Positions 2,641 to 64,000 of a stretch of DNA of 64,000 nucleotides are shown one piece after another. Source of the DNA: Triglochin maritima (Eukaryota > Streptophyta > Magnoliopsida > Alismatales > Juncaginaceae); assembly GCA_963682175.1 (NCBI GenBank), contig OY821775.1, forward strand, positions 37,756,053 to 37,820,052, given 5' to 3'. A program made the translations under genes and the position numbers. The notes below the pieces were generated by a model that saw only the letters and a program-made list of their open reading frames with translations, did not search any database and was not told the DNA's origin. The first letter of the stretch is position 1, and each line of letters begins with the position of its first letter.

Positions 2641-2682
2641 AAGCCGTATATTTGACGTATATTCCTTATTCTGCACTGATGA

Positions 2683-3341
2683 TCAACAATAGACTCGGTC
2701 GACCGACTAAGGATCGGTAAACCGTTGAGGGGTCTTTCAAAATACGTCACTAGACGACAAAACATAAGTCCATTGAGAATTCTCAATAGTTTATTGCCAC
2801 ATGGGCCAATAGGATCAAGTCGTTAAGGATCCAAAATAATGCAAATTTTTGGATGATCGATCCATGTTCGGTAGTCCGAATTAAGAGTTTCAGAAAAGAT
2901 CCAAAGTGTACGTACTGAGCGGGTGGAAATAGATAACCGCAAAGGTGTCGGTCGTCCGGTAGAGTAAGTCCAAAGTAAGAACTCGAGGGGCACTAGTTAA
3001 CTGAAGGTTATTTGGTTGTCCGATTGAAACAATATCAGTAGACCGACATGAACACGGTCGATCGATAGAGACGGATAATCCTTTTGTGCATCAAGTGTAC
3101 ATTTGATCTTATGACTCAAATACATAGAAAATTACATGTCTTCTCCTTGAGCTTTGATTACAAGTCTTCATCTTTGATGTCTTTGTTGATTAGTTCCCAA
3201 TTTGATCACCTACATTGATAGAGATATACAATATATATGTCATTGAAGCATGCATTTCTATATGATGTGTTATTTTGAGTAAAACATAATATTAGTTTAT
3301 TAATCATCAAAATTAATAGTAATGTTGCCAAAACGCCAACA
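2683..3341 (-). mobile_element. Truncated LTR of the TGTTGGC family
   Basis: On the minus strand this begins TGTTGGCGTTTTGGCAACAT at 3341 and continues with a stretch containing TTTTGATGATTAA, matching the start of the LTRs at 44657 and 45248. It is cut by the CACTA element at 2682, so only about 660 bp of a roughly 1.5-kb LTR remain. Its inner part holds a palindrome array. Boundaries: clear at 3341, truncated at 2683. Confidence 0.6.
2696..3064. repeat. Paired CGGTCGACCG-type palindrome array
   Basis: Sites start at 2696 (CGGTCGACCG) and 2715 (CGGTAAACCG), 19 bp apart; 2869 (CGGTAGTCCG); 2930 (TAGATAACCG) and 2949 (CGGTCGTCCG), 19 apart; 3013 (TGGTTGTCCG), 3036 (CAGTAGACCG) and 3055 (CGGTCGATCG), the last two 19 apart. 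This is a degraded version of the arrays seen in other LTRs of the window. Confidence 0.55.
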
Positions 3342-5819: not shown

Positions 5820-8705
<2,886 letters not shown>

Positions 8706-25200: not shown

Positions 25201-27375
25201 AATACTAATTGGTATTCGGATATTATCCGAAATTGAATATATATATATATATTATAATTAATTTTCGAATCAAAATTTTCGAATACTAAATTTTCGTATT
25301 AAAATTTTCGAATACTAAATTGTGTATTTGACTATGTATTTGAATAATTCGGATAATTCGGATAATTCGAATTTTAAATAGCTTGTATCCGAATTCGTAT
25401 CCGAATTCTAATTGGTAATTTTTTTAAACCATATTCGTATCCGAAATTAAATTGGTAACATTGAACTTACCAAATACCAACTAAATAGAAATTTTCGAAT
25501 CGGATACTCGGATACTTGGTAACCATTTGCACCCCTAAACATGAGTTTACGCTATACAATAATTCAAATATCTTACCTTCCTTGGCTTTCATATTTGTGA
25601 ATCATGATCTGTTAATATGAACTTTAATATTTTGGTTGCTTAAGAAAGTGTACAAAATTTAAGCGTTGAAAAAAGTAGAACCTTAGAAATAAGAACAGAA
25701 GAAGAATTGGGTCTTGCAGAGAGATGACCCTATTCAAGCTCTGGAATCAAATAGACTCAGTCTAGATAACAAAAAATGGGATTATGTGAAACATAAAATT
25801 TTAATCAATTAATCATTGACATGGTGCTACTGCTAACGCAACCACAAGACCCCCAACAACTATGCTAACATAAATCACACAAGTAACAGAAACAAGAAAA
25901 ATATCATTGTCAAGTGAACCACTGAAGTTATTTCCGAGTTTTGCTTACGAGAAAATAGGAAACGAGCTTTCCAAAAAGAAGGAAATGAAATTTATCAGCT
26001 AAACAGTCCTGTATTTCCGTAATCAATCTCATACAAATAAGCAACATCCAGAAGCATAAAATTTTAATCAATTAATCATTGACATGGTGCTACTGCTAAC
26101 GCAACCACAAGACCCCCAACAACTATGCTAACATAAATCGCACAAGTAACAGAAACAAGAAAAATATCATTGTCAAGTGAACAACTGAAGTTATTTCCAA
26201 GTTTTGCTTACGAGAAAATAGGAAATGAGCTTTCCAAAAAGAAGGAAATGAAATTTATCAGCTAAACAGTCCTGTATTTCCGTAATCAATCTCATACAAA
26301 TAAGCAACATCCATAAGCATAAAATTTTAATCAATTAATCATTGACATGGTGCTACTGCTAACGCAACCACAAGACCCCCAACAACTATGCTAACATAAA
26401 TCGCACAAGTAACAGAAACAAGAAAAATATCATTGTCAAGTGAACAACTGAAGTTATTTCCAAGTTTTGCTTACGAGAAAATAGGAAATGAGCTTTCCAA
26501 AAAGAAGGAAATGAAATTTATCAGCTAAACAGTCCTGTATTTCCGTAATCAATCTCATACAAATAAGCAACATCCTGAAGCTCACCCACTGCCTACACCC
26601 ACATTCATCTACACACTCATACTTTCGTAGTACGGAAATTGACTCTAAGAATGCAATTCCTTACCGAATTTGCTACCACAAAACATTCTCATTAAGTATA
26701 TGCGCAAAATACAATACAGACTAACACACTACGATCTAAAAAACAAGAAAATATACATGAAAATCCATCTAACATACTAAATTACAATGCGAAAACAAGA
26801 AATTACTATGTTCAAATACAAAATTCGAAAACCATTTGACAATCACAAAACAAAACTAAAAGTTCACTTAACCAGAGGAATCCTTACCCATAAACAGTAA
26901 CCCACTCTTCCTCGTCCAAGTCCCCGAGCAACACGCTACTCCGCTGCACCTCCGGCCTTACAACCTCCCTCGGCGACGGCAACACAACCAACGCCCCATT
27001 CTCAACCACCCCATCAGCTGGCGACCCCTTCTCCTTCTCCCTCTCCCCGCCCCCTCCGCTCTTCTCCGGCGACCACCAGCTGCCACTCCCGGGCGTCTCC
27101 CTCCCCCCGGCGGGGACCGGGGAAGGGGAGGGGGAGAGAGGGATGTCCCCGAGGCCGGTGTCGGGGGAGAAGTCAGCGCGGTCGTCGAGGGTGAAGACGG
27201 GGGGAGGGGGGAGATCAGTGGCGCCGAAGTTGTCCTTCCAGAGGGCGGAGACGGCAGCGGCCTGGCCGGGGGTCACGAACTTGGTCCGGTGGGAAGGTAT
27301 TGGGGACGCGATGTCGCGGTAGAAATGGGACTGCCGGCCGCCGGAGCGGGAGGGGAGACTTGCCGGAGAGGTCAT
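22280..27375 (-). CDS. NUP35: Nuclear pore protein NUP35 (MPPN/RRM-like domain), three exons
   Basis: A scaffold nucleoporin linking the inner ring of the nuclear pore to the envelope. Exons 27375-26888, 23799-23688 and 22609-22280 join in frame to 309 aa, near the roughly 330 aa known for plant NUP35. Exon 1 gives a low-complexity Pro/Ser/Gly-rich N-terminus with TPGQAAAVSALWKDNFG and ends in DLDEEEWVTVYG. Exons 2 and 3 complete the RRM-like fold: TNLVLREFEKCG, HVFGPRDANWMHILYQ, SRYDAQKALAKDGLQL, ALIVGVKPLDP. The C-terminus, VFSKAMDLMFGL, is an amphipathic tail of the sort that contacts membrane. Splice sites are GG|GTAAGG, TTGCAG, CAG|GTGCTT and CATCTAG. Intron 1 (3.1 kb) holds two MITEs and a tandem triplication. 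The call is firm. Confidence 0.92.
23020..23115. repeat. SINE-like fragment
   Basis: The phrase ACAACAACAAAGCCTTTAAT, followed by a CTAGTTGGGGTAGGC stretch, resembles the AACAAAGCCTTA..GGGGTCGGC signature I associate with dispersed plant short repeats. Family and boundaries are not determined. It lies in intron 2 of NUP35. Confidence 0.3.
24074..24257. mobile_element. Small MITE with inverted ends CTAGTGAGCCC
   Basis: CTAGTGAGCCCAGGGCT at the left is mirrored by AGCCATGGGCTCACTAG at the right, with further complementarity inward (TTTAAGCCCC against GGGGCTTAAA). About 184 bp, in intron 1 of NUP35. AT-rich flanks hide the duplication, so the superfamily is unresolved. Confidence 0.65.
25051..25537. 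mobile_element. hAT MITE with 8-bp TSD AACATGAG
   Basis: Termini TAGGGGTGCA and TGCACCCCTA are perfect 10-bp inverted repeats, flanked by AACATGAG (25043-25050 and 25538-25545). The interior is packed with ATCCGAATTCGAATCCGAA motifs. 487 bp, non-coding, in intron 1 of NUP35. Confidence 0.9.
25792..26575. repeat. 263-bp unit repeated three times in tandem
   Basis: Copies start with CATAAAATTTTAATCAATTA at 25792, 26055 and 26318, each 263 bp and nearly identical; copies 2 and 3 share variants that copy 1 lacks (AATCGCACAAG, GAACAACTGAAG), so the second duplication was from copy 2 or 3. It lies in intron 1 of NUP35, 0.3 kb from exon 1. Confidence 0.92.
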
Positions 27376-27861: not shown

Positions 27862-28649
27862 GTCGACTCCTCAACTTCTTCTTTTTTTGTGACCAGGGAA
27901 CTCACCAAACCACCGCCTTTTGGACACCAATCAGGCTACAAACCCCGGGATTCGTGGGATCCACCCCTTTTATTACCCTCTGCCGAACCAAATCTCACTC
28001 ACCGTAATAGGGGCTAGAAGCACCTAAGGAGACTCGAACCCGTGACCTCACGTTTGTGAGGTTACGACCAGCTGAGTTACCCGGTGGGGGTGTAATGACC
28101 CTAACCTTGCTTAAGGTTCTAATGATGTTTAGGTGGCTAATGGTGGCTTTGCATGGGGATGGGAAGAGGGGGCTGCACTGTTGAAGAGGGATGGGCTGGA
28201 GGTGTGCGTGAATAGTGGGCTGGAGTGTAGGGTGATGGTGTGTGATGTTGGTGTGGTTGGAGAAAGGGGAAGCTCTCTCTCTCACGTTCTCTCATTCTCT
28301 CTTTTCCTTCCTTTCTTCATTCCTCCTCTCCACCCATTCCTTCCTTTTCCTTTGGGGCTCGAGCGGTGGTGGTGCGAGCAAGGTGCGCGAGGCAAGGGGC
28401 GTGTTGGGCGTTGGTGAAGGCGTGTGGAGGAGGACGTGAGTGAGATTGCGGCCCGGAGGCGTGGTAGTCGGAGCTCCGGTGTTCTTCATCGATCTTCAAA
28501 GAGAGGTATGCCAAGTTCTTGCATTAGAGGCCTATAGTGATCACCCACGTTGGGGTGATGTTTTGTGTTGGTCGGACGGGGAGGTCGGGGACCTCTTCGG
28601 CGTTGTTTCCGTGAGAAACCTCGACTAGCGCGAGGTGGAAGACGACCAA

Positions 28650-29133
28650 CGGTCGACCGGTCCCTTCGGGCGGTCGACCGAATGTAGTGTTTTTACCCGA
28701 CTTTAACCTTCACCGGTCGAACGATGCCTTTCGGCGGTCGACCGGTAGTGCGTATTTGCTGGTGAGTTGGGGCTCTCTGTCTGTTTTCGGTCGACCGGTT
28801 CCTTGGGTCGTTCGACCGGAACTTAAGTGCACTGATTTTCTATGCATGCTTGTGTCGACCGATTGTATGTTGCGTTCGACTGTTATATGACGTAGAATAA
28901 TAGGTTGACCCTGTAAGGTTTCGGTCGACCGAGACCCCTGAGTCGGTCGACCGATAGATTGATTTTGATTTTGACCAGACTCCGGATTTTGACCTCGTTC
29001 GGTCGACCGGTTTTAGATCCTTGTTCGACCGTTGGGGATTGTGTTTTGAGCGCAGCGGTAGACCGTGTTAGGCGTACGGTCGACCGATTCCTTTCTGGAA
29101 CCGGTCGACCGAATCACCTCTTCCGGTCGACCG
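28650..29133. repeat. Array of eight CGGTCGACCG palindrome pairs
   Basis: Pair starts (first/second site): 28650/28671, 28714/28735, 28788/28809, 28852/28873, 28922/28944, 29000/29022, 29056/29077 and 29102/29124. Within-pair spacing is 21 or 22 bp in every pair; pair-to-pair spacing is 46-78 bp. First sites are mostly perfect CGGTCGACCG; second sites are often NGTTCGACCG. The sequence between sites is not conserved. Confidence 0.9.
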
Positions 29134-29654
29134 TTTGGGCCCAGGACAGAATTCCTGGTTCCACTTAGGATGCCAACTCTGTCCACGGAAACCCGTGTCC
29201 TCGCCTTGTGCGTGAGCCGGGAGGTGACGGTGGGCGCGTTATGCGTGTCTGCCCAGGGACCGCCGTGTGGAAGAGTGTGGGTGTCCGGAACGCGTCACCT
29301 CCATGTATGGATCGTGACTGTATCTGGTGGATCGTTTGACTCGCGTTAGAGTAGCAGCCTGAGGGATTGCGGATCCCATTGCTTCAGCAACACGCAACTG
29401 CCGACGGGTGTAGTGACTACCGGCCGATGGCTACGGAGGCACAGAGACTACCGGCCAGGATTGGCGACGGAGGTCCAGAGAGGTACCAGCCTATTGACGG
29501 CGATGGAGGTCGCGACCCTGCTCGTTTGGAGCCGGAGTTGGTGTTGCACGTGGAGCTCGTTGACCCTGCGGACTTCGGTTCGGATCTGTCGATTGTCTGG
29601 CCCTGTGTGTGGCGGATATGTTCGACTGGCCTTGATGGCAGTGATTGCATGTGT

Positions 29655-30230
29655 CGTGCGGCCTATGTGGCGGCGGTAGGGCCCCTGTGCGGCCTGTGTG
29701 GCGGCAGGGAGGATCGCGCGTAGCATGTGTGGTTGCGGCGATGGACTGCCGATGATGTGTTCCGGCAGGTAGCTCGACTGGGCACCTATCGAGTGATATC
29801 CTGTGCGGTCTGTGTGGCGCCGGTTGATGGACCGACCTGAGCGACGGCTCCGTTGGTGTGGTGGTGGACCACGATGTTTTCAGATCTGATTCTACCTTGC
29901 GCGGAAGTGCGAACGCCTCCTCACCGATCCCTTGGCTTGTGTAGTCGCGTGTGGGGATGTGTTGCGTACTGTCCGTTAGACCGTATGTGCCTACGGTAGG
30001 TCTCTACGAAGACCCGATGCTGGACCGTGCGGCCTGTGTGGCGACGGTGATGTTGACCGTGTAGCCTGTGTGGTACCGGTGGTTGTTTGGACCGTGCGGC
30101 CTGTGTGGCGGCGGTGAGGTTGGACTGTGCGGCCTGTGTGGCGACGGTGATGTTGCGGACCGTGGGGCCTATGTGGCAGCGGTGGCGATTGTAGACCGCG
30201 GGGCCTGTGTGGTAGCGGGAACGATCGCGG
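29655..30230. repeat. GC-rich minisatellite-like block
   Basis: Irregular repeats of GACCGTGCGGCCTGTGTGGC followed by GGCGGTG or GACGGTGATGTT, most regular at 30025-30220 with about 47-55 bp units. It lies inside the solo LTR, and open frames across it are a by-product of the repeat. Confidence 0.7.
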
Positions 30231-30674
30231 GACGGATGTCCAGTTTGGCCCTTGGTGGCAATGTTGTTTTACTGCTTTGTATTCCATGTCATGTTATACT
30301 AGTATGTTAAGGCATATAGGTGAGCTTGTCATACGGGGTTTCCTTATGGAAACTCAGGCATTGTTGTTGCATCTTTTTCAGGACCGCGTTAGGTTCCGGC
30401 GGGTGGTGACCGAGGGAGATTGCACTTTGGGACTGGATCCTGTCGTCTACCTACTTTAGGTTGTCGTGATTACATGTACCTTGTGTTTTGTGTTATGATG
30501 TAATCACTCTTTTGACAAACTCGTATTGTATTATGATGTACCAGACTTATTTATGTATTTCTTTCAGTAATGTCCTCACTCTTGATGGTTTTGTCCACGT
30601 GTTTCTCTTGATTTAAAAAGTTTAAATTTTCCGCTGTTCGGGGATGTTACAGGGGGTGTCGACTCCTCAACCTC

Positions 30675-34341: not shown

Positions 34342-34635
34342 TAATCTGTTGGATTATTGAGTTGGGACTAGACCTATGAATAACTCAATTGAGTAAATCC
34401 AATGTTGAGTTGAAGATGAGAACTATTGTCCCATGTGTCATGTGTTCACCTCACTTTTAGTCCTACATTGGTGAATCTAAAAAGTTCGAGGATGTTGATA
34501 AACATCCTCTTCACTTGACCATTTGTAGGTGGAAAAAGAGTTGGAGAGAATTCTCCACACACACACACACACCCGCCGGTCCCTTCCGGTCCGGGCGAGG
34601 CGCTGCGGTAGGGGTTTAATTAACCGTAGAGCTCT

Positions 34636-36559
34636 TGGTCCTTAACCGTAGAGCTCTAAAAGATATCGGTTTACATAAAACAAAAGATATTCGCAATCAT
34701 GGTAATTAACATGGGACATTAATTACCGGGTTAAGATTGTCGTGTCGGTCATAGATCATTGTAGCTCTACAAGTGAGTGACAACACGGGTATGCAAAAAG
34801 GAAAATATTACTTTTGTATACTGAATAGACCTAATAAGTAAAATATTATAGAAATGTGTTTCTGTGTCATTAATATTTTACTGTGTCCTTGGTCCTTTGA
34901 TATGAGACTTATATCCGATCGCTTAAGGAGTTCTTAATTAGACTAGTGTCTTGAGCTATCGATGAGTGTAGTGTAAAGGCATTAGTTGGTTAAGTATAAC
35001 TTTCGTTGGAGAAGATAGTTAGTCAAAAGATTATCATTGCCCTCTTAATTGAGTGATGATATTAGTGGGCCCCTTGATAAAGCAAAGTTATAATGTGCAC
35101 AATGTGATTTGAGTTAAGTCACATATTTATAACTAGCTTAAAGAGATCAAGAAATGAATACTAATACAAAGATGACACAATACTACTTTGTGTGTATTCT
35201 TAATATCACGAGGCAAGGGACGGACACAAGTGGTGCACTCCATCACTAAATGGATCGGGTTTTGGTTCGAGTGGAATTAAGACATCTAACTAATTGGGAG
35301 CTATAATGTGTAGCTAGATACCGCTTATAGCTTGTGATATTAAGCTCTTAATATCACTGCCAACTTAGTTTAGATCCTCTCATAGGTCACACCACAAAAC
35401 TGGGAAACAAGAAATTGGGATTTTGAGTTCATAAGATGTGTCGGGTTTCATGTAGAAAAATATGACACATGGGATGAACAAGCAAAATCAAAATTATGTT
35501 GTGATTAATAACATAATTAGAATCTAAATTAAATTCATATGTGATGTAAATATTATGGGGTGTAATGATTGATCATTACATAGGATAATATGTTACATAA
35601 GTTGTGAATTTACTACTAATCCCGAAATATCAAATTTTGTAGGGGTTAAACCGAAATTTGACAAGTCTGCAGAACAGTGCTCCAACGGTCGACCGGTTAG
35701 CAGTAAACGGTCGACCGGACGTGTCTCGACCGATAACAGGGAATTTTCATCTGTTCGAACGGTCGACCGAATGTGATCGGTCGGTCGACCGAACATTGCG
35801 ATGGAATAGTTCCTGTTACGAACGGTCGACCGAGTTATTGAACGGTAGACCGAAACCTGGTTCGAGCGGTCTAACCAAACCTCGAAACGGTCGACCGGTC
35901 CAGACGGTTTTCAGCAGAATTAATTTAAGAATTAATTAGATCATGCATGTAATTGGTCCATAATTAATTTAATTCGTGGCTAATATTATTTATTATTAAA
36001 TAATGGATGGTTAGATGGAATTTTGCATGAATGGGCAAGAGGTTGCACATGAATAGGTAATTTGGAGAGAACTTATAAATACAAGTTTATCTCATTACCT
36101 CCTTAATTCATTCATTGCTTTCTCATGCAAAAATTCTCTCCCCATAATTCTCCACGAAAATTCCTTAATTCTTAAGTTTAGTTTAGTTCTTAAGAGATCA
36201 TCTTCTCAAGGGAATTAAAGAGGGGTTAGTAATTGGATTCTAAACCCTATCGGAGATTGAGAGACTTGCTTCCCTCTCTCCGATCTTGTTTAGAGTTTGG
36301 TGAATACTCGGAGGCATCTGGCGCAACGAGGAGCATCCCCAACGTCTCCGAATCTTCAAGAAGTTTTAGAGAACTTCTAGGTATGAATTGATGCATGCAT
36401 GAAATAAATCATAGAAAATTGTTTTAATAAAGTTTTGAAACTAGATATTGAAACAAATTGATGCATGCATGAAATAAATCATAGAAAATTGTAAATTGAT
36501 CCTTATTGTGCATAAAAATTCGAAAAATATACATGCATAATTAAACATGAAATCCTACA
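34636..36559 (+). repeat. 5' LTR of the inner copia element
   Basis: 1924 bp, TGGTCC to CCTACA. Contains four palindrome pairs: 35686/35708, 35759/35782, 35823/35843 and 35867/35888 (spacing 22, 23, 20, 21), plus a half-site near 35723. A GAGAACTTATAAATAC phrase near 36066 is the likely TATA region of the element promoter. Confidence 0.88.
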
Positions 36560-36560
36560 G

Positions 36561-36572
36561 TGGTATCAGAGC
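36561..36572 (+). other. Primer-binding site, initiator tRNA-Met
   Basis: TGGTATCAGAGC directly after the 5' LTR, the standard copia primer site. Reverse transcription starts here. Confidence 0.92.
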
Positions 36573-37928
36573 TTAGGGTTCAATTTTCTCATGATTTATG
36601 GTTGTAAACGAATTTAGTTTACCATCTAGGATTTAAACAATTCGATTTACTAGTTTTTTCGGTCTATGAATGTTTGTTGATGTAATTCTCCATAATAATT
36701 CGTTCTGAATATTTTAAGTGTTTTAAAACATGCCATGTAATTATTAGAATTAAGATTTAGACATTTGACTAACTTGCAATAATTTCGTTTTAAGTATAAA
36801 CGATTATTTTGTAAGAGAATCAACAAAACCGAAAAACTGCGATTCATCTTTCCATTGTAAATTGGATGGACAGCGGTTCATAATTAATTTTTGAACTATG
36901 GATGCATGAAAAACGTTTTTAATGGATTTCAAAATATTTTTCAAAGAATTGTTTGGGATTCTAGATATTTGATAAACTAGGGTGTATAGTTTATAGCGAT
37001 ATTGCGTGCATGGATGCTCGAGTTGTTTTTGCAGGAATTGTGAGTTTGTATGTTCCAAATCAGCGGCTATGAATGTTTATAATTGTTATAATACAGGGGC
37101 TTATTTATGTAAAAGCCAAATTCTTTATTTGCATTTTTTAGATAAATTGCATATGCATATGAGAAGTTTTTACATAGGACTTGCACTAGTCGGTTTTTAT
37201 CGAATGTGAGGAGCATGTTTATTTTCTGTAAAATCTACATCTCTGGTGCAAGAGGAAGTCGCCACTGTAGCGCATCGATCGAGGATCGAGGATCGGGGCT
37301 CGAGGATCAAGGATCGAAGGTAACATATAAACTCACACGATGTGGATTGTGTGAATGTTTAATTTCTGTTTTTAATTTCTGCTATGCATGTGATGAATGT
37401 GGTGAATGTTAGGATATGTATGAATATTAATATGCATGATAACCTAAAATTCCAAATCACGTGTAAATATATGAAATTGTCTAACAAAAATTAAGAATAA
37501 TTTCCTTCTTATTTCATCCACTTGCAGTCATTGATTGAGGGATACTCTGCTCGCCCTTAGCGGGAGATAGCTCCCTCCATCTTTGGGAATAGTGGGAGAT
37601 ATAATGGTTGTCTGTTGTTGTGCCACGATTAGATGTATGAGATGTGTTTCACCCTAGTGAAGCCCAAGTATGTTTAGTTGTGAATACAATGGATAAACGT
37701 ATCTCGTATCAAATGAAAATAAGTTTTCTTAACATTACCTAGAGCCCTCGCTCGGTTTTGGGAAAAAGCTTTTCTAACGAGGATAGGTCGCATTCCCTCA
37801 TAATTAAAACGACAAGAGTCACAAGAGTTTGAAGATGCTAATATTGCTAAAATTCAAAAAGGTTGTGATTAGAAAAATGTTTTTCTTACCTTGATGTTGT
37901 AATGTATTCGATAGCCCTTAGCTAGTCT
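36573..37928 (+). other. Untranslated leader of the inner copia element
   Basis: A 1.36-kb stretch between the primer site and the gag frame. Short open frames only. The usual N-terminal part of copia gag is not visible, so the frame at 37929 may be 5'-truncated by mutations in this leader. A short GATCGAGGATCGAGGATCGG tandem repeat lies near 37275-37320. Confidence 0.5.
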
Positions 37929-40900
37929 ATGTTACAATTAATGGGATCTTGTATTGTTGCATTTATGGCCAAAAAATTTTATTTGCAATATAAAATGTGT
38001 GACTCGCTTCAAGCGAAATACTTGGATTCAAAACCCAAGAAGACCATGGAGGCTTTATCAAAGATGTTCATGGATAATGCCCGAAAGGAGCGCTATAAGA
38101 CCACCATCGCACTCACAAGGTGCCATATGGCGGAGGCAACATCGGTATCTATGCATTTTCTCACGATGCAAGGATACCTTGAGAAGTTGGCAAAACTCTC
38201 TTCACCAATGCCCAAGGACATTGCTGAAGATATGATTTTTGGCTCTCTAACCCCGTCCTTTAAGGACTTTGTGATGCACTATCACGTGCGTGAAAAAGGG
38301 GTGAGTCTTGAGGAGCTTCACAACGCTCTCAAAACTGCTGAAGTTGACATAGGCAAGGGTAGGGACAAACAAGTCCTTGCCGTCCATGGGAGGAGCCAAA
38401 AGATTGGTAAAGGAAAGGGCAAATCTACCAAAAGTTGTTCAATCAAGAGCAAGGGAGTAGGAGGTGCTCATAAAAGTGTCTCGAGGGGGAAATCTCAGAA
38501 ATCTCCAACTCCCAACACGGAATACTTTCACTGTGGTGAAAAAGGACACATCCGGCCAAATTGCCCCAAGTACAAGGAAGATCTTGACAACGGAGTGATT
38601 GAACGTCGGCGCCCCAAAAAGGCCAAAGGTATATTTGTTATTGAAATAAATTTAGCCACCTCTGTCCAGGATTGGGTAATTGATACCGGATCTTGTGCTC
38701 ACATAGTTTCTAATGTGCAGCTACTCATGGATAGGAAGGAACTCGTAAGGAACGAGGTAGAATTGAAGGTCGGAAATGGTGCGAACGTGTCTGCGGTTGC
38801 ACAAGGTTCTGCGGTGCTTCAATTATGAAGTGGTTTAAATTTATGTCTAAAGAATGTTTATTATGTACCTTCGATTAGCAAGAATATTATTTCTGTATCA
38901 TGTCTGGATATGGATAATTTTAATATAAATATTTCAAATTCTTGTTTGTCTATATCGAAGAATGGTGTTTTCTATGCAAATGCGTTCATAAGGAATGATC
39001 TCTATTTGCTTGAATTAAATAATAAACAAATCTTTAATATCAATAACAAAAGACTTAAGACCACTCATGAGAATGATACTCTCTTGTGGCACTATCGTCT
39101 TGGTCACATAAATAAAAAACGCATCAAGAAATTGCAAGAAGCTAACCTTCTTGGTCTACTTGATTTTAAATCATTGGAGACGTGCCAACCATGTCTAATG
39201 GGAAAAATGACCAAAAAGTCTTTCAAGAAGAAAGGTCCAAGGGCGAGTGGCTTGTTGGATTTGATACATTCCGATGTATGTGGTCCAATGAGTACTAGTG
39301 CACGAGATGGTTTCAGGTACTTCATTACGTTCACGGATGATTATAGTCGTTATGGCTATGTTTATCTAATGAGAAACAAAAGTGAATCTTTTGACAAGTT
39401 CAAAGAATTCCAAAATGAAGTAGAGAACCAACTCGACAAGAAAATCAAGTGTCTGCGAGCGGATCGTGTATGTGAGTACTTAAGTGTCGAATTTGACTCG
39501 TACCTAAAGGAGTTTGGTATTGTACCTCAACTCACCCCTCCCGGAACACCTCAGTGGAATGGGGTATCCGAAAGGAGGAATAGCACATTACTCGACATGG
39601 TTCGGTCAATGATGAGTCATGCGGAATTACCTCTTTACTTTTGGAGTTATGCACTACAAACTGCGGCTTACACACTAAATAATGTTCCATCCAAATCCGT
39701 GGAGAAAACTCCTTATGAGCTATGGAGTGGTAAAACACCTAAGCTCAATTTTCTCAAGATTTGGGGTTGTGAGGCTTACGTCAAGAGATTGATGTCGACC
39801 AAACTTCAACCAAAAGCGGATAAGTGCTTCTTTATTGGTTTTCCTCGTGAGACAAAAGGATACTACTTTTGGCATATCACCTCCAATCGAGTGATTGTAG
39901 AGAGGGATGCCACATTTCTGGAAAAGGAATTTCTAGAAAGAATAAAAAGTAGTGGGAGTTGGGTTGTGCTTGAGGAAACTCAAGATACTCTACAAGATCA
40001 CGACATGAATGATGACATTCAAGATCATGAAGGCCCAACCGAGATTCCTTTGGTTAGTGGGAGCATGAGCGAGAGACAATCACAAGAAATTGTGAGAGAA
40101 TCTCAATCATCCCCACCAAGTGTACGTTCAAGAGTTGAACATGAACCGATTCCTCAAGAAATTGTGGAAGAAGTTCGAGAGGCACGAGAAGAACCAAAAG
40201 GACTAAGAAGGTCAACGAGGGAAAGGAAGAAACCCGATATCTATCTGGGACTTCATGAAATCATGGTACTAGATACCAATGATCCCTTGACCTTCCAAGA
40301 AGCAATGGAGAGGGAAGACTCCAAACTATGGCTCAAGGCCATGGAATCCGAAATAGAATCCATGTATGATAATCAAGTATGGGACTTGGTTGACCTTCCT
40401 CAAGGTAAAAAGGTCATTCATAATAAATGGGTTTTTAAGAGGAAGATGGACATGGATAGGAACCTGACAACCTACAAAGCAAGACTTGTAGCGAAGGGTT
40501 TCACTCAAGTTCAAGGAATTGACTATGATCAAACTTTTTCACCGGTTGCCATGTTCAAGTCTATTCGGATCATGTTCGCTATTGCCGCATTTCACGATTA
40601 TGAAATATGGCAAATGGATGTCAAAACGGTTTTCCTTAATGGGAACTTGGAGGAGGATGTGTACATGGTACAACCTCAAGGTTTTGAAGATTCAAAGAAT
40701 AGCGAGAAGGTATGCAAGCTTCAAAGATCCATCTATGGATTGAAGCAAGCATCAAGGAGTTGGAACAAACGCTTTGATGAGGAAGTGAAGAAGCTTCACT
40801 TCATTCAAAGTAAGGAAGAACCTTGTATATACAAGAAGGTTAGTGGGAGCCATGTAGTATTCCTAATCTTATATGTCGATGACATATTGCTTATGGGCAA

Positions 40901-41723
40901 TCATATTCCTTTGCTTGAGCAAACGAGAAGTTCATTGAAATCTGCATTTTCAATGAAAGATATGGGTGAGGCTCAATACATCTTGGGAATCAAGATATAC
41001 CGAGATAGATCCCGTAGACTCATTGGCCTAAGTCAACGTACATACATTGACAAGGTCTTGGAAAGGTTCAAGATGAACAACTCCAAAAAGGGCAGTGTGC
41101 CAATGAGTATGGGTGTGCAACTCAAGAAATCTCAACGTGCTCAATCACGTAAGGACTTAGAGTACATGAAGGATGTCCCTTATGCTTCGGCAATTGGGTC
41201 GATCATGTACGCGATGACTTGCACAAGACTCGATGTCTCGTATGCTCTAAGCGTGACAAGTCGTCACCAATCCAACGCAGGTCCTGAGCATTGGACTGCG
41301 GTCAAGAATATCCTGAAGTACCTTAACCGGACTAAGGATAAGATTCTTGTTTATGGGGGACAAAGGGAATTGATAGCTGAAGGTTACTCGGATGCGAGTT
41401 TCATGAGTGATCCAGACGATAGAAGGTCACAATCAGGATACGTCTTCCTTCTGAATGGTGGAGCTGTGAGTTGGCGTAGTTGGAAGCAAAGCACTATGAC
41501 CGACTCAACCACTGCTTCCGAAGTAATGGATGTCGCTGAAGCGAGCAAGGAAGGAGTGTGGATTAAGAAGTTCCTTGAAGAGCTTGGAGTAGTTCGCTCG
41601 AGCGAGGGACCAATAGAGCTATTTTGCGACAATAGTGCATCTATCTCGCAAATCAAGGATCCTAAATCACACCACAAAGTGAAGTACATGGATCGTAAGT
41701 ACTTCGTGACACGTGACTTTTAA
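37929..41723 (+). pseudogene. Copia gag-pol polyprotein with one in-frame stop
   Basis: Reads gag, protease, integrase, reverse transcriptase, RNase H in copia order. One TGA at 38826-38828 breaks an otherwise continuous frame. Gag has a zinc knuckle HCGEKGHIRPNC whose first Cys is Tyr (codon 38523-38525, TAC where TGC is expected). Protease: WVIDTGSCAHIV. Integrase: WHYRLGH..CQPC zinc site, core Asp in HSDVCGP, second Asp in RADRVCEYL (RSDRGGEY is usual) and Glu in SERRN. Reverse transcriptase: YVDD at 40872-40883. RNase H: EGYSDASF and DSTTASEV. It ends early at VTRDF, lacking the usual tail. Recently active, now disabled. Confidence 0.88.
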
Positions 41724-41810
41724 ATGTCAATTATTATAAATTGAATGAGAAAATCATTTTGTTCCATGTTTATGTTATTCGTCTTTTGGAAGTGTTAAGG
41801 AAGAGACTCT

Positions 41811-43720
41811 TGGTCCTTAACCGTAGAGCTCTAAAAGATATCGGTTTACATAAAACAAAAGATATTCGCAATCATGGTAATTAACATGGGATATTAATTA
41901 CCGGGTTAAGATTGTCGTGTCGGTCATAGATCATTGTAGCTCTACAAGTGAGTGACAACACGGGTATGCAAAAGAGGAAAATATTATTTTTGTATACTGA
42001 ATAGACCTAATAAGTAAAATATTATAGAAATGTGTTTCTCTGTCATTAATATTTTACTGTGTCCTTGGTCCTTTGATATGAGACTTATATCCGATCGCTT
42101 AAGGAGTTCTTAATTAGACTAGTGTCTTGAGCTATCGATGAGTGTAGTGTAAAGACATTAGTTGGTTAAGTATAACTTTCGTTGGAGAAGATAGTTAGTC
42201 AAAAGATTATCATTGTCCCTCTTAATTGAGTGATGATATTAGTGGGCCCCTTGATAAAGCAAAGTTATAATGTGCACAATGTGATTTGAGTTAAGTCACA
42301 TATTTATAACTAGCTTAAAGAGATCAAGAAATGAATACTAATACAAAGATGACACAATACTACTTTGTGTGTATTCTTAATATCACGAGGCAAGGGACGG
42401 ACACAAGTGGTGCACTCCATCACTAAATGGATCGGGTTTTGGTTCGAGTGGAATTAAGACATCTAACTAATTGGGAGCTATAATGTGTAGCTAGATACCG
42501 CTTATAGCTTGTGATATTAAGCTCTTAATATCACTGCCAACTTAGTTTAGATCCTCTCATAGGTCACACCACAAAACTGGGAAACAAGAAATTGGGATTT
42601 TGAGTTCATAAGATGTGTCGGGTTTCATGTAGAAAAATATGACACATGGGATGAACAAGCAAAATCAAAATTATGTTGTGATTAATAACATAATTAGAAT
42701 CTAAATTAAATTCATATGTGATGTAAATATTATAGGGTGTAATGATTGATCATTACATAGGATAATATGTTACATAAGTTGTGAATTTACTACTAATCCC
42801 GAAATATCAAATTTTGTAGGGGTTAAACCGAAATTTGACAAGTCTGCAGAACAGTGCTCCAACGGTCGACCGGTTAGCAGTAAACGGTCGACCGGACGTG
42901 TCTCGACCGATAACAGGGAATTTTCATCTGTTCGAACGGTCGACCGAATGTGATCGGTCGGTCGACCGAACATTGCGATGGAATAGTTCCTGTTACGAAC
43001 GGTCGACCGAGTTATTGAATGGTAGACCGAAACCTGGTTCGAGCGGTCTAACCAAACCTCGAAACGGTCGACCGGTCCAGACGGTTTTCAGCAGAATTAA
43101 TTTAAGAATTAATTAGATCATGCATGTAATTGGTCCATAATTAATTTAATTCGTGGCTAATATTATTTATTATTAAATAATGGATGGTTAGATGGAATTT
43201 TGCATGAATGGGCAAGAGGTTGCACATGAATAGGTAATTTGGAGAGAACTTATAAATACAAGTTTATCTCATTACCTCCTTAATTCATTCATTGCTTTCT
43301 CATGCAAAAATTCTCTCCCCATAATTCTCCACGAAAATTCCTTAATTCTTAAGTTTAGTTTAGTTCTTAAGAGATCATCTTCTCAAGGGAATTAAAGAGG
43401 GGTTAGTAATTGGATTCTAAACCCTATCGGAGATTGAGAGACTTGTTTCCCTCTCTCCGATCTTGTTTAGAGTTTGGTGAATACTCGGAGGCATCCGGCG
43501 CAGCGAGGAGCATCCCCAACGTCTCCGAATCTTCAAGAAGTTTTAGAGAACTTCTAGGTATGAATTTTGGAGCCCATATTTGTTTTAATTAAGTTTTGAA
43601 ACTAGATATTGAAACAAATTGATGCATGCATGAAATAAATCATAGAAAATTATAAATTGAACCTTATTGTGCATAAAAATTCGAAAAATATACATGCATA
43701 ATTAAACATGAAATCCTACA
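41811..43720 (+). repeat. 3' LTR of the inner copia element
   Basis: 1910 bp, near-identical to the 5' LTR, with the same palindrome pairs around 42863-43074. It is directly followed by the start of the outer element's gag at 43726. Confidence 0.88.
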
Positions 43721-44656: not shown

Positions 44657-45247
44657 TGTTGCCTTTTTGGCCTTAATCTATATTTTAATGATTTAATCAA
44701 CCTAATCTTAATTGTGATCGTGTAGAGTAGCACACATGTTACATTGCATATATATCGCGTTGTGCTAACCTCTACAGGTGATCAAGTCTCAAGGAAGAAA
44801 GGAAATCGAGTCAAGACATGTAATCAAGCTCGTTTGAAGACATGTATTTTGTATTTCTTTGAGTCTTTAGGAACTTTGTGTAATTAAGCATACTTTAGCT
44901 AAAATCTACTCAAACACACACTAGGTTTCCTATAGAAGTCATACACGAAATTTCACATTATTTGGACTTCAATAGATCACCCAAACTTAGACCGGAAAAC
45001 GCTAAACCTGAACCCAAACTGTCTACCCACATTCGGTCGACCGGATGATCAATTAATCTATTAGTGTTTAACTGCCTAAGTTCGGTCGACCGTTCAGACC
45101 TTTTCGGTTGACCGAGTCCCAAGTATTTTCCGACCGTTTGTTTTTTCGTATATACCTAACAGTCGTATTCTTATAAACCAAAAATACCCCCATATACATT
45201 TTCATGTATCAGTCGACCGAGGACCTAGTTTGGTCGACCGAATATCT

Positions 45248-46790
45248 TGTTGGCTTTTTGGCCTTAATCTTTATTTAGTTTTGATGATTAAGTAATCTAA
45301 TCTTAATCTATATTTAATCAATCAACCTAGACAATCAAAGTAAGCAAACATGAATACATGCATTGCATACATATTCGTGTACTTGCGATATTCTTAATAG
45401 GTTGATGAAGAATCAAGCCAAGGAGCTTTGGGACAAGAAGATAAAGACTCAAGACATGTAATCAAGCTTTGGACCAATATGTAATTTAGTATAATTTGAT
45501 TACTTAGGAATAATGTAAACTTGAGCACATTAGGATTTTATCCCGTATCCCCATGGTTAACCGAACCCCTCTCGGTAAACCGAATCCTGTAGAGTTCGGT
45601 CCACCGAACATCTTGCGGTCAATTGTGTAGAATCCTTTAGGTGTTCCCTGGAATAACCACCTCGGTATACCGAACCACCTTCGGTAGACCGAATTAGCCT
45701 GTACCAGTTTTGGACTTTTGCTCCAACGGTCGTATTTAAATCTTGACCTAAAGCCCAATTGACTTATCCATATTCGGTACACCGAACTTCATTCGGTCAA
45801 CTGAATCATATTTCTTTAGGAGCCCAACGACTATTTAACTTGACCATTATTGGTAAAACAATTTCCCACGCATTGTCAACTTAAAACCCGCGCTAACTTT
45901 GGTATACTGAAGTATAGATGGTCAACCGAACCTAGCATTAACAGAACCCTACCAATCTTACTGTCCAGTTTGGAACGGTTAACCGAATGGGTTTCGGTAA
46001 ACCGAATTGTATTAGGGTTGCTAGTTAGAGAGCTACTGGAGTTGAGTGAGCGGTTAACCGAATAGGATTCGGTAAACCGAAGTGACCATCTTCGGTAATC
46101 CGTTTGGTTAACGGTCTACCGAGGAGCGTGCAAATTCTGCCTGAACTTCTGTCACTTCATCACTTTTCATGGGTCAACTTTCTCACCTACTCCCCAACGG
46201 CTCTAAGAGCTTTGAAGCCTATATAAGGACCTCATTAGAAGCACAACATAAGGACTACACTCTCCAAACATCAAGTATCCTTGTGCTATCTTTCCCAAAC
46301 CTTCAAAGCTCAAATCCTATACACTCAAGCCAAAACTTCACCACTTGTATTCCTAGATCCATATCATAATCCAAGTGTGCTCAAAGTTAGAGTGTCATTA
46401 GCAAGAAGTGTGTTTCATTCCTTCATCCAAATCACAAGAGTTGTGATAGCTTCGGGGAAGCTCCCTCTCGGGTTGTGAGAGGAGACACGGGCGATGCGAG
46501 GGTGTTCGTGAGGCTCGTTGTTTGTAAAGGCGTTGATCTCGGCCCGGTAACGGAGATCGGATAGTGGAAACCACAAGCGAGGCTCGAGGGACGAGCGGGG
46601 CTTGTGAGTGAGGACTAGGACCCAGGGAGGGTGCCGAACCTCGTTACATCGGGCGTCGACTACAACGTGGTTTGCAAGTTCTCTAACTCTCATCTAACCC
46701 TTGCATAATTAGTTGTTAGTTTCGTAATTAAGTTTTAATTCCGCACTTTAGTTAATTACGATCACTAGAGGGCCCCATACGATCCCCTCA
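45248..46790 (+). mobile_element. Solo LTR B nested in A, TSD TATCT
   Basis: Starts TGTTGGCTTTTTGGCC and ends GATCCCCTCA, flanked by TATCT (45243-45247 and 46791-46795). 1543 bp, same family as A by its first 50 bp and by its 3' part (GTTGTGAGAG, CCGGTAACGGAG-type region). It landed inside the palindrome array of A. Confidence 0.88.
45554..46121. repeat. Eight palindrome pairs at exactly 19-bp spacing (CG-less variant)
   Basis: Pairs: 45554/45573, 45597/45616, 45663/45682, 45775/45794, 45900/45919, 45976/45995, 46051/46070 and 46093/46112; the spacing is 19 in all eight. Sites are CGGTTAACCG, CGGTAAACCG, CGGTATACCG, CGGTAGACCG and the like: CGGT and ACCG half-sites are kept, but the central CG of the other arrays is replaced. 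Confidence 0.88.
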
Positions 46791-47691
46791 TATCTGTCTC
46801 TTGACAAACCCAAACTTCTGTTAGAATTCGGTCGACCATTAGATCTTGTTTCGGTCGACCGAATAGAACTTTGTTTGTCAACCCCTTAGAGTCTGTTGTG
46901 AATCGGTCGTCCGAATCCTATTCGGTGTTCGACCGATCACTTAAGTGTACCTAAGTCGTAGCGTTGGGCGGTCGACCGTTCCTTAACCGGTCGACCGAAC
47001 TGAGTTCAAAACTGCCTAATGGTTGACCGTTCAGCCCGATCCGGTCGACCGAATTACCTCAGAATTGGGTCCTGTGAGTTTTTTGTGTTGTTTATCCTAC
47101 ACCAACACTCACCCAATCAACCCCAACAACTATATTCTCTCTAATGACTATATAAAGAGTTGTAAAACACATTTTAACACAACTCTCTCACACATACTTG
47201 TCCAATACATTAGAGAGAAACCCAACACACTCAAAGCCTCAAACCTTCCACACTTTAGTCATAAATCCTATCTCACTCAAGTGTGCTCAAGTTTAGAGAG
47301 TGTTGTTCCACTCAAGATTCGTTTGTAAAGAAGCAAGGACTTCGGTGAAAGCCTGAAGTGTTCCTCTCGGATTGTGAGAGAAGAAAGTCAAGCTCACGAG
47401 GTTGTTCGTCGAGCTTATTTTGTAAAAGGCGTTCTCTCCCGGTCTGGAACGGGGAGTGGATAGTGAAGACGCGAGCGGAGCTCGAAGTGTCGAGCGGAGC
47501 TTGCAAGAGAGGACGTAGGTGGTGGCCGAACCTCTATAAAAACCCCCGAATCCATTGTGGTTTGCATTATTCCTTCCTTACTTGCTTGTTTGTTTAAATT
47601 CCGCTACGCATAACTTGATTGCTTAAACAAGTAGGTAATTAGCTTAAAAGTTATTAGAATTAGCGACCCTCTCGATCCAACACACATATGT

Positions 47692-48615: not shown

Positions 48616-49804
48616 TGATGCATTGCATACATTGCATCATATGTCTTTCATTTAGATTACTTTTACATCAATAAATGCTACTAAGGTATGTGTTTAGTCT
48701 TATTTACAGAATACAGGGACCTGAATGCAATTTACCCACATTCCGAGCATAAACGTGTGCAAAAGATTCATTTCTATCATAAAGACCGAATTCAAGTTTA
48801 TCGGGTTTCAATTGGAAATGCATCCAAGCATAAAAGCATCCAAGGAGCTAATCACAAAAAGGTCAAGGGCTTAATTGCAAAAACGCCAAGGACCTAATTG
48901 CAAAAGAAAAGGATCAAGATATTTTGTTGGAAAAGTCAAAAGAAAAATCAACTATAAATCTCCAACAATGGAAGGAATTAATCCGGAGCTCAAGACAATG
49001 GAAAGAAATCATCCAGACACGCAAATAAAGATCAAATCATACCATAAACGCGTGACAAAAATCCTGATTAAATCCGACCAACGTGGGAGGCGAATCCGCC
49101 GCACAATACACATGATGTGCGGCGATTCCGCCGCCCATTGGTTGATCCGTGTGTCCCAATTTCGTCCACTCGTGTATGGACACGTGTACTATCCAATTCT
49201 ATACCTAAGTCCCTTGTAGCAACTATAAATAGACCCGAGAACGATGTAAATAGGGTCCTTAGTTGTTGTTCTTATTTGTGTACCTTAGTTTTATTAATAA
49301 AATTCTGTTCTTTTAATTCTTGTTTTAGTTTTCTTTTAATGTCTCAAGGACCCCTTCTTCTTCCTCCCTCCATGAGTTTCTAACTCTCTCCAAAGGGTGG
49401 AGGTGATGGAATTAGGGTTAGAGAATGATGAATGCATGTTATTATTTTAAGTTCATGATTAGTGTATTTTGATTACTTGAGTTTATGTTAAGTCATTTAT
49501 CTTGTAATGCTTCATAACTAACATGATTTACAATAAGTTTCAGTAATTCTCTACTCTAAACCTAAGTCTAAACCTCCACCCCACGGATTTCTCTCTTTGT
49601 TCTTGTTTTAATTTTAATTGCTTTTGTTTCGTACTTTAGTTAATTAAACCAAAAACCCCAAAAACCCAAATTAATTCTTCTCTCCTTCCTCTCCCACAAT
49701 CGAAATAACAAAAATAACGAAATCTCTCCCTCCTTGTGTTCGACCCGTACTTGCCACGTCTTCATAGACGCCGTGCACTTGCGGTATAAATAAAATTCTC
49801 ATCA
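48616..49804 (+). repeat. 5' LTR of the gag-only element
   Basis: 1189 bp; contains ACTATAAATAGACC (near 49220), a TATA box for the element promoter, and a paired GGCGAATCCGCCGC / GCGGCGATTCCGCCGC inverted motif near 49088-49136. Open frames in it are repeated exactly in the 3' LTR. Confidence 0.93.
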
Positions 49805-49810
49805 AGTTTT

Positions 49811-49828
49811 TGGCGCCGTTGCCGGGGA
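49811..49828 (+). other. Primer-binding site (tRNA-Asp type)
   Basis: TGGCGCCGTTGCCGGGGA six bases after the 5' LTR, the primer site usual in Athila/Tat-like gypsy elements. The tRNA identity is by recall. Confidence 0.8.
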
Positions 49829-51078
49829 GACGACGAAGATTTCGTTTGTTTTTGTATTTTCGATTTTATCCTGTCTACATTATGCGTGATCTAAGTATCT
49901 GAATTTGTGTAGCAGGAGACAACAGAGCGCGCGGCGAAATCCGGGAGCATTCTGAGACATCTGGGCGGCGGAATCGCCGCATCTGCAAGAGGAAGTGCGG
50001 CGGAATCGCCGCACAAGATAGGGTTCTGGTCTTCAAATTTCTGGGGCATCGTCGGCATCGCTGGGTGGTCGCATTGAGCTACTGGAATCTTCGAGAGCGG
50101 GCGGCGAACCCGACTGAGCATTGCGGAGGTAACTTTTCTTGCCTTTCCCGTAAAATCTGAATAGTTGAAAAGTTTCCTTTCGTAGAATTGCACGTGTTAG
50201 GGTTACAATTCCATAATTGGCAATAATTCAACTCTGACCTAAAAGTGGCAAAATTAGAAAGACCTTAGTGCATGCATCATATAATGTTTTGCTTGCATTA
50301 TTCTTGCTAAATTCTTGCAAATTAATACTTGTTGAAGATTGCTGGAGGCAAGGTACGTATCGAGGTTTTATCGATTGCATTAGAGCATATAATTTAGTTG
50401 CATACAACCTTGCAATTTCCCCCATTAAAAAGACCATTGTTTGACTATCTTTGCTAGATCTAAGTTAAACTACTTTAAGGGCAACTCCGTAGGAAAAGAT
50501 ACGGTGGGGATTTCATCACCTTTCCGTGGCCCACAAACCACAATCCTAAGTGTCACCTAAGCCTAAATTTAAAATCAATTAGACATTGGCCCCTAAGGAC
50601 TCGGACTCAATTAAGGAGGAGAGTGATTTGACTTGCTATGACCTGAAGCTAATTGAATTCAATTGGTGTCTAGAAAGTGTTTTTGTGTTGACGAAAGTCT
50701 TCCAAGCAACGTGGTTGTCTAATTGGCACCGACTCTGTCGGAAGCGCCCCCACTAGCTATACACTAACTGGCCAACTTGGGTTGATTGGTGAGGGAGGTG
50801 AATCAAGCAAATCAATTCGACTCAACCAGTTAGGAGTCGTCTAGATCTAAGCGACACTAGGTCTAGGATTGTTTGAACCGTGCTTTCTTAGGAAACCTCT
50901 GACCGACCCTCTTTTCTATCTTTAGAGTTAAGTTTCCCTTCTCGTCTGAGTCTTCTTTCCCTTCTCATCTTTACATTTCTATTGTTTGTTTCCAATTTCA
51001 TAAATTAAAAAAAAACGAAAATATAAAAAAAAAACTTAATTAATTCTTGAAATTAAATTTGGAATTTAAATTTCGAAT
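49829..51078 (+). other. Leader of the gag-only element
   Basis: 1.25 kb of untranslated leader between primer site and gag. It has scattered GCGGCGGAATCGCCGC motifs (49970-50010) like those in the LTR. No open frame with family features; packaging signals would be expected here. Confidence 0.5.
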
Positions 51079-62799: not shown

Positions 62800-64000
62800 T
62801 GTAGGATCCTAATCCTAATTGTGCCTTAATCATGTTTTAGGTGGTGATTAGAGGGAGATGAAGATGGATGGCTTGGATTGAAGATGGTTGGATGGAGGGT
62901 TGTGATGGAGTGGAGATGAGATGAGTGGTGGAGATGGAGTGGATTGGAATGGATGGTGAGGATTGGATTGGGAGGAGATATTATTGGGTTCCCTCTCTCT
63001 CTCTCAGTTGCCCTCTCTCACGATTCCCTCTCTCCCTCCTGCAGTGAGCTCCGGCGAGTTGGTGCTCCGGCGTGGAGTTGTGTTCGGGGCAAGCGGTGGT
63101 GGTAGTCGTTTGTCGGTGGCTTGAGGTGAGTGGGTGGTTCTTTAACCTTTCCGCACATTTGGTTCTCTTTCTCTCTACCTCACTCATTTTCTGTGGTCGT
63201 GGGTGATTGGTGGAGGTTGCCGGAGGTGGATTCGTGAGTGTGGATCGTCGAGGAGGAGTTGATCATCGTTTGGATGAGAGAGTCGTCGACGGATCGTATT
63301 TGGGGAGACGTGCTCGTGGAGGCATCGCCGCAGTTCTTCAAAGGTCTCTTCAGACCTTCCGGTATGTCAAGCTTGCTCACTTAATTACCGTGAGTATTTG
63401 GAAGTCGACGGTAGGCCGTTCGGCTCGTCGCAAGTAAATGTGCAGCAGATTTCACTGCCCGATCGGTCGACCGGTTGGTGCAAACGGTCGACCGTTCGTG
63501 AAGAAAATACGGGTTCTGCCTGAAATCGGTCGAACGATACCTTGTGGCGGTCGACCGATTGTGCATAAAAGGCAAACCTGGTGAGTTTCGGTCGATCGGG
63601 TCCCCTTTGCCGGTCGACCGTGTGCACTGTCTTAAGTCGGTTGGGAGCGTTGACCATCTAAACGGCCGACCGCTCTTTGACTTTGTTCGACCGTGACTTA
63701 AGTGAGTTTGGGGGTCGGTTCGACCGAATGTGGGTTCGGTCGACCGGACCTGCGTGTTGAGCGTGAGGAACGCTCTGGATGAAATCGGTCGACCGAGGAG
63801 GTCTCGGCGTTCGACCAGTTTCAGGACGCGAGAGAGGGATTATTCCCTGTGGGATCGGTCGACCGAAGGATGCTCGGAGTTCGACCGATCGGACGTTTTG
63901 TTCGTTGAACCTGGGAGTTGACCATCTAAACGGTCGACCGTCCCGTGATTTTGGTTCGACCGAACGAGTGTGGTTTTGGGAATCGGTCGACCGAGGGAGT
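62800..64000 (+). mobile_element. LTR (gypsy-like), cut by the window end
   Basis: Starts TGTAGGATCCTAATCC and follows the same plan as the LTR at 28091: TTTTAGGTGGTGATTAG near 62837, a CT-rich block (62990-63035), then a palindrome array from 63464. Whether it is solo or part of a full element cannot be seen. Confidence 0.7.
63464..63993. repeat. Array of CGGTCGACCG palindrome pairs, running off the window
   Basis: Pairs: 63464/63485, 63527/63548, 63589/63611, 63663/63684, 63717/63737, 63786/63808, 63856/63878, 63931/63953, and the first site of a ninth at 63984. Within-pair spacing is 20-22 bp; pair-to-pair spacing is 53-75 bp. Second sites are often NGTTCGACCG. Confidence 0.9.

Follow-up and report, generated by a model that had tools for sequence, protein, structure and literature searches.

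Clustered palindromes in the LTRs of plant retrotransposons have been described for Sireviruses. The repeated motifs (RM) of Bousios et al. (2010; PMC2829016) form a class of palindromes with a CGG-CCG core, present in eight or more copies per element and located upstream of the TATA box, and RM clusters form predicted CpG islands. Table 3 of that paper gives the RM of a Vitis Sirevirus as exactly CGGTCGACCG. The RM was called Sirevirus-specific and missing from classic (other Ty1/copia) retrotransposons, the comparison set for this specificity being Ty1/copia. The hallmarks of Sireviruses given there are an AT/TG junction and a linker, 1.5 kb long on average, that contains several AGGGGGAG tracts; a single-AGGTGGAG variant with AT/TG is described as common in classic elements. 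In maize, palindrome clusters in the LTR cis-region of Sireviruses were reported to match small RNAs (Bousios 2016, cited in PMC10760457). According to PMC10760457, the palindrome CACCGGACNNNGTCCGGTG is found also in Helitrons of maize, a precedent for a palindrome outside copia elements. Among DNA transposons, VANC21 is described as binding dense arrays of short motifs in Arabidopsis VANDAL elements (PMC5735166).

An earlier note on the DNA analyzed here, made from its letters alone, knew of no described plant element feature that matched the palindrome it carries. The lack of a described match is not supported, as the decamer is identical to the RM of a Vitis Sirevirus. The motif and its LTR position are already known, published in 2010 for one carrier family. 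Its carriage by non-Sirevirus Ty1/copia elements and by two Ty3/gypsy LTR families, its pairing, and its helical phasing are new in that we did not find them in print. A word search of the main text of PMC2829016 returned neither pairing nor helical phasing of the RM. Among the papers listed by searches of the open-licence PMC literature, none described carriage beyond Sireviruses, pairing, or helical phasing of the motif, and PMC2829016 alone tied this motif to palindromes in retrotransposon LTRs.

The window, a 64-kb stretch (C7:37756053-37820052) of a plant assembly of 1,063,122,952 bp, contains 38 exact CGGTCGACCG sites, compared with a mean of 0.01 in 100 dinucleotide-preserving shuffles. 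There are 52 CGGTNNACCG sites and 89 sites with at most two mismatches. Genome-wide, CGGTCGACCG occurs 359,535 times, versus 90 for a reversed control (the same letters backwards). Every one of the 38 exact sites of the window, and every one of its 52 CGGTNNACCG sites, lies inside the LTR intervals used; two of these intervals, 2300-3341 and 63200-64000, were drawn by hand, and their LTR ends were not found. These site counts confirmed the palindromes and pairs listed in the earlier note (coordinates in Table 1).

Table 1. Array-bearing elements of the window and the carrier families outside Sireviruses.
Feature	Position	Strand	Remarks
Decayed array, Sirevirus-like LTR remnant	2696..3064	-	Minus-strand matches to L034-L036, 51-73 bp, 75-80%
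Solo LTR, assigned by LTR similarity to Ty3/gypsy family gyp1	28091..30651	+	GGGGG on either flank
Array in gyp1 solo LTR	28650..29133	.	10 exact sites among 16 with up to 2 mismatches, forming eight pairs at 21-22 bp
copA 5' LTR	34628..36559	+	98.2% identical over 1935 bp to 41802-43720; primer site next
Array, copA 5' LTR	35686..35897	.	6 exact sites; TATAAATA 177 bp downstream
copA gag and pol reading frames	37926..41723	+	Retrotran_gag_2; rve, RVT_2
copA 3' LTR, aligned part	41802..43720	+	TGTTAAG start at 41793
Array, copA 3' LTR	42863..43074	.	6 exact sites
Sirevirus-type LTR, 3' end approximate	44657..47657	+	Second LTR inserted; 76-83% identity to L034-L036
Array, first part of interrupted Sirevirus-type LTR	45034..45240	.	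2 exact sites
Nested solo LTR, Sirevirus type	45248..46790	+	Starts TGTTGGCTTTTTGG; TATCT on either side; partial L034-L036 matches
Array with varied centres (TA, AA, AT, others)	45573..46121	.	No exact site; five pairs 19-24 bp
Array, second part of interrupted Sirevirus-type LTR	46829..47051	.	4 exact sites
Array W63, unassigned LTR	63464..63993	.	9 exact sites; runs past window end
copA, Ty1/copia	window 34628-43720		LTRs 98.2% identical; copia gag and pol
cop2, Ty1/copia	C1:126281-131989		LTRs 91.6% identical; RVT_2 inside
cop3, Ty1/copia	L031		LTRs 97.8% identical over 762 bp; RVT_2 pieces inside
gyp1, Ty3/gypsy	C1:187960-196925		LTRs identical over 2,041 bp compared; 5-bp duplication ATCTA
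gyp2, Ty3/gypsy	L030		LTRs 99.84% identical over 1,862 bp

Some identities given in the earlier note required correction. Its gypsy-like LTR at 28650-29133 is part of the longer solo LTR; this locus has no internal region, and it is placed with Ty3 elements, as proposed, in family gyp1, through LTR similarity alone. Over the array region, identity to the gyp1 copies C1:158, C1:188/195, and C1:62 is 77.6-85.8%. The LTRs called 'TGTTGGC' do carry arrays and proved to be of Sirevirus type by their similarity to L034-L036. The C1 relative L033 is without 45248-46789. The array reported from 63464 to the end of the window is present, but it goes on in the adjoining sequence, with exact sites at L029:37 and 59. 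A tRNA-type primer site, TGGTATCAGAGC, comes right after the copA 5' LTR. Other LTR elements are free of arrays: a Ty3-type element (48616-55935), a copia element (C1:142251-148513), and a copia LTR that begins at 60126. The first of these is young and possibly non-autonomous: its 1190-bp LTRs are identical, it lacks palindrome sites, and its long ORF covers nothing beyond gag and protease. The window also holds about 940 bp of a 6-bp tandem repeat (6635-7576; 157 in-frame TGATGA copies, several frames open), a 263-bp unit in three head-to-tail copies that are about 98% identical (25789-26581), and a minus-strand ORF with SWIM and RING zinc-finger matches (61032-61694) that is perhaps a Mutator-like transposase remnant or a piece of a host gene. 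A mevalonate kinase ORF had angiosperm hits that were all distant, with 62% identity at best.

Sireviruses are among the carriers in this genome. AGGGGGAGATTGTTGG occurs 3,424 times genome-wide (1684+1740), and all three junctions fetched from among these, L034-L036, have the features expected of Sireviruses: 5, 4, and 5 AGGGGGAG tracts in the linker and the AT/TG junction AGGGGGAGAT/TGTTGG. Their LTRs contain 7, 10, and 9 exact sites, respectively. In one case (L037:4897-6498 with L034) the element is a short one of Sirevirus type, with a gag ORF alone found before the PPT series; it adjoins a cop3-like pol in L037 (88% to L031). At C1:17553848-17560785 and C1:53948295-53958795, PPT junctions are repeated at intervals of 3461 or 3495 bp, which suggests tandem arrays of short Sirevirus-type derivatives.

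Three other Ty1/copia carriers appear to lie outside the Sireviruses, as they lack both the series of AGGGGGAG tracts and the long linker. copA has no AGGGGGAG nearby, its junction is GGAAG/TGTTAAG, and about 70 bp separate the end of the pol frame from the 3' LTR. cop2 and cop3 each have a single AGGTGGAG, with at most about 180 and 60 bp, respectively, from the pol match to the 3' LTR, and both have the AT/TG dinucleotides at the junction. The copia RNase H tree comprises nine fragments, none of them a Sirevirus pol, so the copia carriers are not placeable against Sireviruses by phylogeny.

Two further carriers, gyp1 and gyp2, are judged from their coding regions to be clear members of Ty3/gypsy. 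In gyp1, a gag-pol frame of 1473 residues (4,419-bp ORF) lies within about 4.58 kb, and in gyp2 one of 1497 residues (4,491-bp ORF) lies within at most 4.71 kb. Both pol regions have RVT_1, RT_RNaseH, Integrase_H2C2, and SH3_Tf2-1 matches; a Chromo match, which at the end of integrase would mark a chromovirus, appeared only in gyp1, below the cut-off (23.2 against 25.1 bits). Ty3/gypsy pol sits between array-bearing LTRs in L027/L028 and L030. The gyp2 LTR matches an array LTR at C1:106889, and LTR comparison reported no match between it and the gyp1 LTR. The earlier proposal that LTRs of both superfamilies carry the array is thus upheld by Ty1/copia and Ty3/gypsy pol within carriers.

Measured against the published RM description, CGG-CCG palindromes reach at least eight copies per element in the gyp1, gyp2, copA, and cop2 LTRs. 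Sites with at most two mismatches number 16 in the window gyp1 LTR, 17 in C1:188 gyp1, 21 in C1:106 gyp2, 8 in copA, and 11 in cop2. The CpG-island property is present in four window arrays as judged by the CpG observed/expected ratio only, at 1.54 (gyp1), 1.80 (copA), 1.17, and 1.52, compared with 0.80 for the whole window. A TATA box lies downstream of the array in copA, copB, cop3, and the Sirevirus L034; the cop2 LTR has no TATA match, and the Ty3 LTRs have no clear TATA box after the array. The published Sirevirus specificity of the RM does not hold in this genome, where Ty3/gypsy elements, copA, cop2, and cop3 carry the array.

The sites are arranged in pairs. Genome-wide, 110,331 pairs of exact sites lie 15-45 bp apart, with 5-35 bp between the two sites (0 in the control), and 86,109 of these pairs have a distance of 19-23 bp. 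With the two central bases left free, the count was 170,932 (2,732 in the control). In the first 100 exact pairs of the list, the start-to-start distance is 18-25 bp for 86 (22 bp for 43 of these), 31-33 bp for 3, and 40-44 bp for 11, with none at 15-17, 26-30, or 34-39 bp. Sixteen arrays of the window and C1:1-200000 have 128 adjacent distances, of which 52 were 19-23 bp, whereas random placement in the same spans averaged 13.6 and never exceeded 27 in 2000 trials. A spacing near two helical turns, proposed previously together with a genome-wide scan and a scrambled control, is therefore supported by a peak that random placement does not reproduce. Short (S) and long (L) steps alternate (SL 33, LS 28, SS 8, LL 5, others 38).

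The 16 arrays were obtained from 21 clusters by dropping four rows, then filtering; the rows were the second LTRs C1:195226, W42863, and C1:131209 and a near-duplicate (C1:51216) of C1:156475. The same four rows were dropped from the covariation test, the pairing/alternation test, and the pooled ladder, which took a single LTR from each of L030 and L031. The half-site conservation analysis left out only the second LTRs. In the C1 sample, the first 12.5 kb or so (L009 and the beginning of L010) had all six frames open and were N where inspected, so that the usable part of the 200 kb is nearer 187 kb.

The pooled step ladder runs through 22, 33, 42, 50-53, 63-65, and 72-75 bp, and the longer steps gather near 33, 42, 51, and 64 bp, at increments of about 10.5 bp. 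Among the pooled steps, the 106 that measure at least 30 bp gave 10.5 bp as the best period within 7-15 bp (R=0.46; 0/5000 under both nulls), and counting each distance once gave a best period of 10.7 with R dropping to 0.28 at 10.5; periodicity tests of this kind overstate independence because copies of one family share distances. In 135 distances of 15-66 bp from C1 beyond 200 kb, a set that overlaps in part with the loci pooled for the ladder, the best period was 10.4. The 72 distances of 36-66 bp alone favored 11.3 (R=0.57 versus 0.54 at 10.5; uniform null 0/5000).

Pairs of palindromes could also fold as hairpins in RNA or single-stranded DNA, with a 10-bp stem and a loop of 8-15 nt, as for the maize Sirevirus clusters, the spacing then being loop length. 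Any two palindromes are complementary, and the small-RNA matches reported in maize (Bousios 2016, cited in PMC10760457) would fit such a structure. We consider it unlikely, as the 82 pairs show no covariation: where left position 8 is A (8 pairs), right position 3 is G in all, and where right position 3 is T (13 pairs), left position 8 is C in all 13. When centres are other than CG/CG, the left complements the right in only 1 of 24 pairs. A stem, moreover, has no need for 10.5-bp steps out to 75 bp.

Variation within the sites bears on what is recognized. Varying centres are self-complementary in 6 of 17 left sites and in none of 17 right sites, and all four half-sites are intact in only 40 of 82 pairs. 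As the centre is often not self-complementary when varied, CGGT and ACCG are the likely contacts, against a strict 10-bp dyad. Facing half-sites are often CGTT/AACG while the outer ones are still CGGT/ACCG (window 28650-29133, C1:188451-188975, and window 63464-63993). Over all pairs, third-position conservation is 0.88 and 0.85 for the inner half-sites and 0.93 and 0.97 for the outer ones.

Sites also outlast the DNA between them, in agreement with the earlier note. Between the gyp1 copies C188 and W28, exact sites are identical in 10 of 10 cases, compared with a mean of 0.81 for random spacer 10-mers (0/5000 random sets). From W28 to C62, the values are 0.956 for sites versus 0.791 for spacers (2/5000), and for gyp2 (C106 to L030) 0.956 versus 0.790 (5/5000). 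Among young or close pairs, cop2 has no site excess over spacers, and copA in one direction (C42 to W35) shows the reverse.

Each site contains three CpG, the dinucleotide that should be lost most rapidly from methylated transposons. CpG and non-CpG positions of the sites are conserved about equally. This weighs on the possibility that arrays matter as CpG clusters, whether as a target of methylation, demethylation, or another chromatin process or as an insulator. The three CpG per site, the CpG ratios of the gyp1 and copA arrays relative to the window, and the predicted CpG islands of Sirevirus RM clusters (PMC2829016) speak for it. The non-CpG positions, however, are kept as well as the CpG, and CpG content alone accounts for neither the decamer nor the 10.5-bp ladder. 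We regard this explanation as improbable.

The Ty3 LTR at C1:158005-159645 is a mosaic: its array half is 90-92% identical to the window LTR and only 83% to the C1:188 LTR, to which its other half is 91% identical. Such mosaic LTRs suggest that U3 blocks were exchanged inside families. Between copA and the C1:156 LTR, the flanks are 92% and 85% identical, and the block of array and TATA differs almost completely, at 71% identity against 63% for shuffles (same-type control, 94%), so that exchange between old variants and fast divergence are not fully separable. Across families, two spacer matches remained among the 16 arrays with decayed sites masked, one of 30 bp between W63 and gyp2 and another of 14 bp; each of 20 shuffles gave none. 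The short matches seen with only CGGTNNACCG masked were mostly gone after masking of decayed sites, and we discarded them as cross-family spacer homology.

Of 12 array families, 5 (Sirevirus, the interrupted window Sirevirus LTR, W63, cop2, and gyp1) have a second palindrome, ACTTAAGT(G), next to a site; the best 9-mer in 50 shuffles reached 4 families twice and otherwise 2-3. At the 7-mer level the second palindrome was no better than shuffles (5 families versus usually 5) and was distinct only at 8-9 bases. gyp1 C188 and cop2 share 21 bases, TCGACCGGAACTTAAGTGTAC, 7 of them within the second palindrome, and the window gyp1 copy has the first 18. Spread of a cassette is suggested within families by the mosaic LTRs. 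Across superfamilies, spacers are unrelated except for a short shared stretch, so the sharing is accounted for no less well by convergence toward a single binding protein.

The same comparisons make neutral growth, in which functionless arrays would arise by local duplication and descend in one LTR lineage, extremely unlikely. Repeated internal units do occur in cop2 and L031. Against this, sites outlast spacers, and only the two cross-family spacer matches remain. Carriers hold both Ty1/copia and Ty3/gypsy pol and so are not one lineage; single-lineage descent, named in the earlier note as the outcome that would count against a shared cassette, was rejected on these pol types.

We hold, with moderate confidence, that the array is an enhancer-type U3 block in which host dimers bind the palindromes as two-turn paired units on one helix face. 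Like the RM boxes described in Sireviruses, it would act in cis on the LTR retrotransposon that carries it. Every CGGT-NN-ACCG palindrome would be bound, as double-stranded DNA, by a protein dimer that the host encodes, the basic unit would be two dimers two helical turns apart, and units would be strung along a single face of the helix. In this plant one site, and with it probably one factor, would serve Sireviruses, other Ty1/copia lineages, and Ty3/gypsy elements. We infer protein binding, its host origin, and transcription activation from sequence features. Helical phasing, the dyad symmetry of half-sites, and the slow turnover of sites are in keeping with a dimeric protein that binds double-stranded DNA, and a shared palindrome spaced by helix turns suggests that the carriers use the same putative DNA-binding protein. 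The position of the array upstream of TATA in the four LTRs named above fits an enhancer. The Ty3 carriers have little spare coding room, which points to a host factor. For LOB-domain proteins, considered as candidate binders, the literature offered nothing useful.

The arrays might instead be targets of a transposon-encoded anti-silencing protein, as VANC is in Arabidopsis VANDAL elements. Like VANC targets, in which density matters, they are dense short motifs in non-coding transposon DNA (PMC5735166, PMC10398659); VANC21 binds such arrays (PMC5735166), and the tandem repeats of VANC targets diverge quickly, as the spacers turn over fast here (PMC5735166, PMC10398659). VANC systems as described in PMC5735166, in contrast, are DNA transposons with a one-orientation, family-specific motif and an element-encoded binder, whereas the arrays here are palindromic and shared. 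One gag-pol ORF nearly fills the internal region of gyp1 and of gyp2, so for these two at least an anti-silencing protein would have to come from another element. We rate this account as very unlikely.

A motif once described as private to Sireviruses is common in this genome to both LTR superfamilies, with a regular helical geometry, and this sharing suggests a single host regulator on which competing transposons draw. It is possible, and we propose it tentatively, that in this plant Sireviruses, other Ty1/copia elements, and Ty3/gypsy elements captured one regulator by way of the helix-phased array, often with ACTTAAGT, and that parts of the block moved between families. Two dyads 21-22 bp apart would be a precise probe for finding the regulator, and the arrays provide a way to ask whether the control regions of transposons become alike by convergence or by exchange. 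If the tentative reading is true, regulator sharing among competing transposons would be directly testable, with some 360,000 sites for a single factor.

Among described systems, the maize Sirevirus clusters (PMC10760457) resemble these arrays in that palindromes are clustered in the LTR cis-region; they differ in having another palindrome, CACCGGACNNNGTCCGGTG, and in being treated there as secondary structure and a source of small RNAs. The Sirevirus RM boxes (PMC2829016) share with them the identical decamer, many CGG-CCG palindromes in the LTR, CpG richness, and, in copA, copB, cop3, and L034, a TATA box downstream. Unlike the RM boxes as described in that paper, the array here is found also in the LTRs of other Ty1/copia and of Ty3/gypsy elements.
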